A stretch of 64,000 nucleotides of DNA, from the NCBI RefSeq assembly GCF_000217815.1, contig NC_015707.1:806001-870000 (forward strand), in the 5' to 3' direction. The notes below the pieces were generated by a model that made no database searches, had not been told where the DNA came from, and was given only the letters and a program-made list of their open reading frames with translations. Positions 16,500-49,300 of the stretch are shown in pieces. This DNA comes from Pseudothermotoga thermarum DSM 5069. GTDB taxonomy: Bacteria; Thermotogota; Thermotogae; Thermotogales; DSM-5069. The position numbers were made by a program, and so were the translations under genes. Positions within the stretch are counted from its first letter, which is position 1; every line of letters begins with the position of its first letter.

Positions 16500-17050
16500 A
16501 AGTTAACCTCCGCGACAAGTTTTCCAGAGAGGGTAAAAAGAGAGATCTTTAAATATTCGTTATCGAAGTCGATCAGAGCAAAACTTGGCGGATTGTTCTT
16601 TTTAGGCAAGGATGGGCTACCTGGATTTAAGATAACGCCGGCTTCTTTCTTTTCAAGTCTTGGTATGTGCGTATGACCAAATGCCACAATGCAAGCTTCA
16701 TAGTTTTTAAGAAGCTGTATGAGATCTTCATCACTCTTTATATTTTCACCGTGCAAACAAACCATTTTGTACTTACCAAAGGTTAAGATCATAAATTTAG
16801 CCATATCCTCGATTCCAAGCAGCATAAGGTCAACGTCGGCATCGCAATTTCCGCGTACCGCCATTAAGTTCTCCGATTTCAAAGCTTCTGCTAAAGCTAA
16901 AGGATCATACCCGGTTGGTATGGGATTGCGTGGACCATGGTAAAGAAAATCTCCTAGATGGACTATTTGATCAACAACCCCAGATTGTTCTCTGAGTTTT
17001 TTCCAACTTTCAAAATCTCCATGTGTGTCGGAAACAACCAATATTCTAAT
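16496..17050 (-). CDS. YfcE/MJ0936-type metallophosphodiesterase, probable ATT start
   Basis: About 185 residues with the complete phosphoesterase motif set: RILVVSDTHGD at the N-terminus, VHLGDF, VRGNCD, CLHGE and AFGHTH. It hydrolyses phosphodiesters in vitro in characterised relatives; the physiological substrate is uncertain. The only canonical upstream start (TTG at 17071) has no ribosome site and adds seven odd residues. AGGAGG at 17066-17061 points instead to ATT at 17050, giving MRILVVSDTH exactly as in homologues. A TTG at 17041 would cut the first strand. It lies in a five-gene minus-strand group. Confidence 0.85.
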   Translation of the reverse strand: MRILVVSDTHGDFESWKKLREQSGVVDQIVHLGDFLYHGPRNPIPTGYDPLALAEALKSENLMAVRGNCDADVDLMLLGIEDMAKFMILTFGKYKMVCLHGENIKSDEDLIQLLKNYEACIVAFGHTHIPRLEKKEAGVILNPGSPSLPKKNNPPSFALIDFDNEYLKISLFTLSGKLVAEVNL

Positions 17051-47043: not shown

Positions 47044-48132
47044 ATGTGGCGATACTACATGCCAACCAAAGTTTTCTTTGGTTTGGACAGCGTCAAACAA
47101 AACTGGGAAATTTTCTCGTCTTTGGGTAAAAATGCTTTGATAGTTACGGGGAAACGATCGTCAAAGGAAAATGGTTCTCTCGATGATCTCAAAGCAACTT
47201 TGCAAAAAGCAAATGTAAATTTTGTTGTTTTCGACGATGTAGAGGAAAATCCTTCATTTAGAACCGTAAGAAAGATTGTTGAAATATACGTTGACGGAAA
47301 CTATGATTTTGTAATTGGTCTTGGTGGTGGAAGTCCTTTGGATACGGCAAAGGCTGTGGCAGTTTTGTTGAAGAACAAAAAGCTAAAAGTTGAAGATTTG
47401 TACGATCCATCGAAGTACACAGATGCTCTTCCAATTTGCGCCATACCAACGACTGCCGGTACTGGAAGTGAGGTGACTCAGTACTCTGTTCTGACAGATG
47501 ATAATGGTTTTAAACGAGGTTTTTCCAGTGATGTTGCTTTTCCAAAAGTTGCTTTCATCGATCCAAAGTACACTTTGATGATGAACGAAGGTTTGACAAG
47601 ATCAACCGGGTTGGATGCGCTTTGTCATGCGGTTGAAGGATACCTTTCTAGAAGAGCTACCCCCATTTCTGATGTTATAGCTCTTCAAGCAATAGAGTTG
47701 ATCGCGCAATATTTACCAAAGGTTTTGCAGAATCCAAATGATTTTGAGGCACGCGAAAAAATGTGTCTAGCTTCATGCCTTGCCGGTGTCGTCATAGCAC
47801 AAACTAGTACGACTTTGGCTCACGCTCTTGGTTATCCTTTAAGCACGTTTAAAGACATCAGACACGGTGATGCCACCGCTGCCTTTCTGGACGTTGTGGT
47901 TGATCAGGCTAGAAATGAAGTCCCAGAAAAAGTTGAGAAAATTGAATCAATTCTCGGTAAAATGGACGAGTTTCTCAAAAACGTCGGTTTAAACGTGTCA
48001 GTTGAAATTTCCGATGAAGAATTGGAAATTTGGGTGCAAAAGGCCATTTCGGCAAAGCATGTTCAGTGGACAAGGGGTAATTTCGATGCAAAACTGGTTC
48101 GAGAACTTTACGAAAGGGTGAGAAAGTATTAA
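47044..48132 (+). CDS. Iron-containing alcohol dehydrogenase
   Basis: 362 residues, group III (Fe) ADH family. NAD-binding GLGGGSPLDTAKAVA near residue 95, IPTTAGTGSEVTQYSVL near residue 137, and metal ligands Asp and His in TGLDALCHAVEGY plus His in HALGYPL and IRHGDATA. It may reduce aldehydes to alcohols in fermentation, complementing the aldehyde oxidoreductase at 23642, or act in butanol/1,3-propanediol-type reactions; the substrate is not defined. ATG follows GGAGGTGATC. The stop overlaps the ATT start of the next gene. Confidence 0.9.
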   Translation: MWRYYMPTKVFFGLDSVKQNWEIFSSLGKNALIVTGKRSSKENGSLDDLKATLQKANVNFVVFDDVEENPSFRTVRKIVEIYVDGNYDFVIGLGGGSPLDTAKAVAVLLKNKKLKVEDLYDPSKYTDALPICAIPTTAGTGSEVTQYSVLTDDNGFKRGFSSDVAFPKVAFIDPKYTLMMNEGLTRSTGLDALCHAVEGYLSRRATPISDVIALQAIELIAQYLPKVLQNPNDFEAREKMCLASCLAGVVIAQTSTTLAHALGYPLSTFKDIRHGDATAAFLDVVVDQARNEVPEKVEKIESILGKMDEFLKNVGLNVSVEISDEELEIWVQKAISAKHVQWTRGNFDAKLVRELYERVRKY

Positions 48133-49300
48133 AGCAAAGGTTTATCTAAAAGTTGACCGACAAAATCAGTATCATCCTTGGATTTACAAGCAAGAAATAG
48201 GAAAAATCGTTGGCGATTACGAGAACGGGGATTTAGTTGGTGTTTTTACACCATCTGGTAGATTTCGCGGCATAGGCTATATCAACGATCGCTCGAAGAT
48301 AACCGTTAGGCTTTTGTCTTTTGAGCCGATTGATGTAGATAGACTTATAAAAATGAGAATCGAAAACGCTATTCATCGAAGAAAAAGGTTACTCAAGGAT
48401 CAGGAAGCTTTAAGGTTGATCTATGCAGAGTCTGATTGGCTACCAGGACTTATAGTCGACAAATACGGTGATTATTTGGTCCTTCAGATAAACACCTTGG
48501 GTATGGAAAAGCTCAAAGAAAAAGTTGTTTCAACTCTTGTGAGTCTTTTGCCAAATGTTGTTGGAATATACGAAAAATCAGATGCCCCGGCTAGGGAAAA
48601 AGAAGGTTTGGCGCAATCGACGGGATGGCTTTACGGTTCAGGTCCTGAAATAATTTATTTTCGCTCGGATGGACTTGTTTTAGCTGCGGATCTTTTGGGG
48701 CAAAAAACAGGAGCTTTCTTGGATCAAATAAGGAATGCTCGGGTGCTTTCGCATTTTGCCGAAGGTAGTGTTTGTTTGGATGCCTTCAGCTACACCGGCA
48801 ACTTTGCTTTGCACTTGCTCAAGTATGGAGCAAAACACGTAAAATTGGTCGATTATTCAGAAAGAGCGCTGCAAATAGCCGACGATCTTTTGAAGAAAAA
48901 CGGTTTTGAAGGAAAATACGAGTTGATAAACGAAAACGCTTTCGATTGGCTTAAGAGAAACTCTGCCTACGGGGAACAATACGACATAGTTGTGTTGGAT
49001 CCACCTTCCTTTGCCAAAACAGCTAGATCGAAGGATCAAGCTATCAGAGGCCACAAGGAAATAAATTTGCGTGCCATAAGGTTGATCAAAAAACCAGGTC
49101 TGCTTGTCACATCATCTTGCACGCAGGTGATAAGTGAAATGGAGTTTGAGCAAATATTGTTGGACGCGGCAAACGATTCACACGCAGAACTTGCCGTGAT
49201 TTACAAATCAGGGCAATCTTTTGACCATCCGTATTTGCTTGGGGTTGAGGAAACAAGGTATCTGAAGTTTTTCGTATGTGAGGCAAGGAGGCGAAGTTGA
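48128..49300 (+). CDS. RlmI-type 23S rRNA cytosine-C5 methyltransferase with PUA domain, probable ATT start
   Basis: 390 residues. The PUA domain (KAKVYLKVDRQNQYHPWIY to KITVRLL) occupies residues 1-62, then the RlmI-like EEHEE region and the SAM-binding Rossmann fold (CLDAFSYTGNFALHLLKYG), catalytic VVLDPPSFAKT, and SSCTQVI. No ATG, GTG or TTG exists in frame before 48314, and a stop lies at 48119-48121. The PUA domain is complete only if translation starts at ATT (48128), which has GGGTGA 6 nt upstream and gives MKAKVYLK, the normal family start. ATT overlaps the previous TAA (ATTAA). Confidence 0.88.
   Translation: MKAKVYLKVDRQNQYHPWIYKQEIGKIVGDYENGDLVGVFTPSGRFRGIGYINDRSKITVRLLSFEPIDVDRLIKMRIENAIHRRKRLLKDQEALRLIYAESDWLPGLIVDKYGDYLVLQINTLGMEKLKEKVVSTLVSLLPNVVGIYEKSDAPAREKEGLAQSTGWLYGSGPEIIYFRSDGLVLAADLLGQKTGAFLDQIRNARVLSHFAEGSVCLDAFSYTGNFALHLLKYGAKHVKLVDYSERALQIADDLLKKNGFEGKYELINENAFDWLKRNSAYGEQYDIVVLDPPSFAKTARSKDQAIRGHKEINLRAIRLIKKPGLLVTSSCTQVISEMEFEQILLDAANDSHAELAVIYKSGQSFDHPYLLGVEETRYLKFFVCEARRRS

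Follow-up and report, generated by a model that had tools for sequence, protein, structure and literature searches.

A probable AUU start codon overlapping the stop codon of the upstream gene is conserved in an RlmI/RlmO-type methyltransferase gene of Thermotogaceae

The gene for an RlmI/RlmO-type RNA methyltransferase in Pseudothermotoga thermarum DSM 5069 appears to begin with ATT, and the last base of this codon is also the first base of the stop codon of the preceding gene. Comparison with related genomes supports the start well, and we consider it highly probable that the gene encodes a full-length enzyme, with a PUA and an S-adenosylmethionine (SAM) methyltransferase domain, translated from AUU at position 48128. 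A first-pass annotation, made from the sequence alone, had proposed the ATT start and warned that standard gene calling would lose the PUA domain. Both proposals are backed by conservation in three genera, and no ATG, GTG or TTG occurs between the in-frame stop and the ATT codon to serve instead. Two points go beyond that annotation: the ATT codon is tied to the stop of its neighbour, and within the phylum apparent near-cognate starts recur in rlmI as well as in further genes.

The window, that is, the whole 64,000-nucleotide stretch analysed, corresponds to bases 806001–870000 of a single-contig genome of 2,039,943 bases; the features of the locus are collected in Table 1. Only GAA and AGT lie between the in-frame TGA and ATT, hence no ATG, GTG or TTG is available there. 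The dehydrogenase frame ends in TAT-TAA and the methyltransferase frame opens with ATT-AAA, so that base 48130 both completes ATT and opens TAA within ATTAA. The reading frame, the closing TGA, the GGGTGA element, its spacing and the ATT codon had all been placed exactly to the base in the first-pass annotation. The reported overlap with a preceding stop is borne out by the upstream open reading frame, and the first canonical codon was correctly located; it is a TTG 62 codons past ATT, inside the PUA domain.

Table 1. Coordinates of the features discussed (window positions; locus and genome handles for orthologues)
Feature	Position or locus	Strand	Evidence
ATT start codon, methyltransferase	48128..48130	+	same in 10/10 same-family genomes
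Shine-Dalgarno GGGTGA	48116..48121	+	6 nt 5' of ATT; AGG(G/A)TGA in 10/10; -8.5 kcal/mol
In-frame TGA closing the methyltransferase frame 5'	48119..48121	+	reading-frame inspection
Dehydrogenase stop TAA, base 48130 common with ATT	48130..48132	+	TAA/TAG likewise in 10/10
Methyltransferase gene, 390 codons + stop	48128..49300	+	frame, Pfam, structure-member alignments
PUA domain (PUA_3, residues 9-65)	48152..48322	+	E 4.6e-18
TTG, first ATG/GTG/TTG in frame; probably internal Leu codon	48314..48316	+	weak Shine-Dalgarno, unconserved
Iron-containing alcohol dehydrogenase, overlapping 5' gene	47044..48132	+	Fe-ADH E 2e-52
rlmI orthologues with ATA/ATT outside the own family	L109 (G088), L161 (G087), L152 (G023), L155 (G022)		start-region reading

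The PUA domain, which the first-pass annotation had recognised in the codons preceding the TTG, matches the Pfam model PUA_3 with 65.2 bits against a cut-off of 22.6, and several methyltransferase models match the SAM domain. Near-full-length alignments were obtained with TTHA1280 of Thermus thermophilus (E 9.5e-68), YccW of Escherichia coli (E 7.5e-60) and PH1915. The architecture of a PUA domain followed by a methyltransferase domain is common to our protein, RlmI (YccW, 3c0k) and TTHA1280 (1wxw), whereas the latter two differ from our gene in the start codon. The NCBIfam equivalog cut-offs are missed, with 316.5 bits versus 575 for NF053718 (C1962 target) and 217.6 versus 712 for RlmI; thus, the modified base is left unassigned and the label stays at RlmI/RlmO-type.

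The gene was sought in 11 genomes of Thermotogaceae and is present in ten, representing three genera; the eleventh genome, 71% complete, gave no match. The ten compared loci are our own and those of nine relatives (G002–G010), with six of the ten lying on the minus strand and read as reverse complements. Conservation of ATT in related genomes had been named in the first-pass annotation as a check, and ATT indeed occupies the aligned codon in every one of the ten. Equally invariant are the sharing of its T with an upstream TAA or TAG, the AGG(G/A)TGA element six bases upstream, and a dehydrogenase open frame of at least 1086 nt that ends at the overlap. Because the Shine-Dalgarno columns are at the same time part of the dehydrogenase coding sequence, their conservation does not count as an independent argument. 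By contrast, the six spacer columns before ATT vary. The base preceding ATT takes all four letters, and the last dehydrogenase residue is accordingly Tyr, Asp, Asn or His (TAT, GAT, AAT, CAT). As far as the dehydrogenase alone goes, the middle T of ATT could be C; in four sampled genomes, NAT makes up only 33–58% of NAY codons. Codon 3 of the methyltransferase is GCN in all ten genomes, with a free third base. A TTG stands six codons downstream of ATT in five relatives (G006–G010), where it could serve as a start; it is missing in our genome and in G002–G005.

The overlap offers an explanation of why the codon is not ATG. Changing ATT to ATG would convert the TAA or TAG of the neighbour to GAA or GAG in all ten genomes, and the dehydrogenase would run on for 8, 7, 20, 42, 29, 20, 8, 27, 25 and 25 codons, respectively. 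Among NTG and ATN starts, ATT alone ends in T and is therefore the sole option in this register. With its third base barred from being G by the stop of the neighbour, the AUG codon would stay blocked for as long as the overlap lasts, and this alone suffices to explain the persistence of ATT in Thermotogaceae, with no need for regulation. A similar arrangement, in which the termination and initiation codons share bases, is found in the translationally coupled coat and lysis genes of RNA phage GA (PMC9955659); the present case differs in that the base in common is the last one of a near-cognate start, where it forbids ATG.

The rlmI-type protein has matches in 91 of 103 Thermotogota genomes. Start regions of the 79 main orthologues were read by eye, with the exclusion of 12 genomes that have weaker, probably paralogous matches. 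ATT or ATA stands at the homologous start in 17 of the 79, the other 62 having ATG, GTG or TTG. Besides the ten ATT codons of Thermotogaceae, there are seven further cases, three of them unambiguous: ATA in five of the 14 orthologues of family f3 (G087, G088, G097, G098, G099), and one ATT (G023) and one ATA (G022) in the two orthologues of family f8. In 13 of the 17, the stretch from the in-frame stop to the ATN codon contains no ATG, GTG or TTG. In G087, G097, G098 and G099, a GTG or TTG is found two to three codons upstream, near or overlapping the Shine-Dalgarno sequence, and is a possible alternative start. The start in G088 overlaps the upstream stop as in Thermotogaceae (ATAG, stop TAG). 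No overlap with a stop was seen in the start regions of G097 and G098, and hence the constraint imposed by a neighbouring stop does not account for ATN starts of rlmI in general. Weak starts recur in rlmI within the phylum, which suggests tolerance of, or even selection for, low expression. In a scan of 78 loci from outside the phylum, eight could not be anchored and one was mis-anchored, and all of the other 69 have ATG, GTG or TTG near the homologous position.

The infC gene, known for AUU, AUA or AUC starts, served as a positive control. An IF3 model matches 99 of the 103 genomes, and 24 of the 30 infC loci taken could be anchored. All 24 have ATT, ATC or ATA after a strong Shine-Dalgarno sequence at the start of the conserved protein; several also have an in-frame TTG or GTG farther upstream or within the Shine-Dalgarno sequence. 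In our genome, infC (L178, G000:C1 near 1960690) starts with ATC behind GGGAGGGG, and shares with the rlmI-type gene the combination of an ATN codon and a strong Shine-Dalgarno sequence. The control thus gave the expected result, and IF3-type start discrimination probably operates in Thermotogota.

The best reading of these data is a real, inefficient, Shine-Dalgarno-driven AUU start that is probably coupled to the upstream gene. The Shine-Dalgarno sequence would hold a 30S subunit or a terminating ribosome and bring AUU into the P site, where the initiator tRNA would read the first two bases and mismatch at the third. Ribosomes terminating one base away, at the UAA or UAG of the dehydrogenase, may help this placement, AUU lying one base from the last sense codon. 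The output of methyltransferase would be expected to be low. The AUU start of pcnB in E. coli, likewise on an RNA-modifying enzyme, limits expression. Other parallels are cvfC1, ccpN and infC of Staphylococcus aureus, where AUU or AUA starts behind extended Shine-Dalgarno sequences were shown experimentally, gave about 10% of the AUG level in poor medium, are kept among relatives and were missed by annotation (PMC13009471). Our case also has an apparent near-cognate start conserved behind a Shine-Dalgarno sequence, but it concerns another gene and phylum, and the start overlaps the upstream stop. A point against our reading comes from a reporter assay in Listeria, where ATT proved the weakest among ATG, ATA and ATT (PMC13068326). 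Shine-Dalgarno pairing in Thermotoga maritima is reported to be strong and to hold at growth temperature (PMC3636130), which fits with near-cognate starts in this phylum. The mechanism is accordingly of a known kind; new are the gene, the phylum and the locking of the start by a stop codon.

Four alternatives were weighed against this reading. The strongest, which we regard as rather unlikely, accepts ATT as the start but holds that it is kept for IF3-dependent regulation, as in infC, with the overlap being incidental. IF3 control of rlmI is in itself plausible by analogy, because infC of the same genomes starts with ATC, ATA or ATT, and rlmI has ATN codons in three families, with no overlap in two cases or more. 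However, the overlap alone would be enough to keep ATT in Thermotogaceae, and the use of near-cognate starts by several unrelated genes, in single species, points to general tolerance. Unlike infC, rlmI is not known to feed back on initiation, and autoregulation is not expected. Far less probable is that the protein begins at the TTG at 48314, or at a later canonical codon, which would leave it without the PUA domain. This TTG is the first in-frame ATG, GTG or TTG, and the form shortened to it still matches methyltransferase models, but predicted Shine-Dalgarno pairing falls from -8.5 kcal/mol at ATT to -1.8 kcal/mol at TTG, and the aligned codon is TTG in only two of the ten genomes (our own and G010). 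Moreover, the 61 codons preceding it make up the PUA domain and behave as a translated frame, with 183, 174 and 353 differences between our sequence and the nine relatives at codon positions 1, 2 and 3, respectively; the apparent coding signal reaches up to codon 2–3. Slightly less probable still is a prfB-like +1 frameshift, by which skipping the T of NAT-TAA at the end of the dehydrogenase would yield a dehydrogenase-methyltransferase fusion. The overlap of the two frames falls exactly on the stop and a Shine-Dalgarno-like sequence lies upstream, as such a mechanism would have it; yet the P-site codon varies freely among the ten genomes, leaving no conserved slippery codon, G097 and G098 have ATA and keep the two genes separate, and the spacing suits initiation, that of prfB being shorter. 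Finally, a sequencing error hiding an ATG, for which nothing was found in favour, is excluded for practical purposes, since ATT is seen in each of ten separate assemblies, in all of which ATG would abolish the stop of the neighbour.

Near-cognate starts in other genes were surveyed in the window and in the syntenic stretches of three relatives from Thermotogaceae, a comparison that covered 418 genes in 125 orthologue groups. Besides rlmI (four ATT) and infC (three ATC, read by hand, as automated picking took an upstream TTG and produced many false flags), inspection by eye gave two CTG each in genes that we take, from recognisable sequence, to be murI-like and rnz-like, two ACG in a small-protein gene, one CTG in a presumably RNA methyltransferase-like gene and one ATT in a gene assumed to be yfcE-like. 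The murI-like and rnz-like CTG codons and the ACG codons of the small-protein gene are in the stretches of G002, G003 and G005 (L193–L212), with very strong Shine-Dalgarno sequences upstream. The yfcE-like phosphoesterase frame (window 17050–16499, minus strand) has an apparent ATT start at 17050 (IRILVVSDTHG...) after AGGAGGTGAACTTGCC; in relatives, the aligned codon or one beside it is ATG or TTG, and the only near canonical alternative is a TTG three codons later. IF3 is reported to tolerate only Watson–Crick pairs at the first two bases (PMC10158994), which makes the ACG candidates doubtful. A second set from Thermotogaceae added further CTG candidates in G007 and a CTG in a uvrC-like gene of our own genome (G000:C1 near 738540, minus strand, in L274), lying behind GGGAGG, with GTG in the G007 partner. 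Family f2 contributed two groups with four genes. Among the controls, no near-cognate start was found by eye in 215 genes of gut Clostridia, and one candidate was found in 70 genes of the Caloramator family. The latter, in G114 (L268–L272), is an ATT at the aligned start behind AGGAGGGATTGG, the partner having GTG; near-cognate starts are therefore not confined to Thermotogota.

Raw machine picks do not separate Thermotogota (26/418 in Thermotogaceae, 19/344 in f2) from the controls (26/215 and 8/70). A filter chosen after seeing the data kept starts that had Shine-Dalgarno pairing of -8 kcal/mol or lower, a conservation contrast of at least 0.4 and no canonical alternative up to four codons away; the yfcE-like ATT is dropped because of the TTG three codons on. 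Near-cognate starts then remain in 11 of 281 eligible genes of Thermotogaceae (five groups) and in 4/222 of f2, versus 0/144 and 1/34 in the controls (1/178 together). The Fisher test of Thermotogaceae against both controls gives p 0.034, to be read with the post hoc filter and the non-independence of genes within groups in mind. The Shine-Dalgarno requirement itself favours Thermotogota, since these sequences are weaker in gut Clostridia (median -5.9 versus -11.7). The second Thermotogaceae set gave 9 of 329 eligible genes, including one internal artefact (G003, group 4). These counts hint that near-cognate starts may be common in Thermotogaceae. For comparison, fixed non-canonical starts were reported in six of 2265 conserved genes of Listeria (PMC13068326), and in a study of 36 genome triplets one of 61,358 ancestral AUG starts had switched to AUU (PMC5622118). 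A search of a collection of open-access papers returned nothing on point for AUU, CTG, unusual or non-canonical start codons in Thermotoga.

A wider reading that joins these observations is possible, though on balance doubtful. It holds that near-cognate starts (AUU, AUA, AUC, CUG and perhaps ACG) stand behind strong Shine-Dalgarno sequences in Thermotogota at a percent-level rate, several-fold above that in Listeria, and that rlmI and infC are the most conserved members, an IF3-sensitive set through which rRNA methylation would follow the state of the initiation machinery; gene-finding programs that accept only ATG, GTG and TTG would then truncate proteins across the phylum. For the gene described here, such programs would be expected, from its sequence, to cut the N-terminal part of the methyltransferase. 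The case adds to the short list of strongly conserved AUU starts one in a gene whose product acts on the ribosome, and ownership of its third base by the stop of the neighbour gives a plain evolutionary reason for its persistence. If the sampled rate holds genome-wide, many Thermotogota proteins may be truncated in the same way, and Thermotogota would then be well suited to studies of how a weak start codon is compensated by a strong Shine-Dalgarno sequence.
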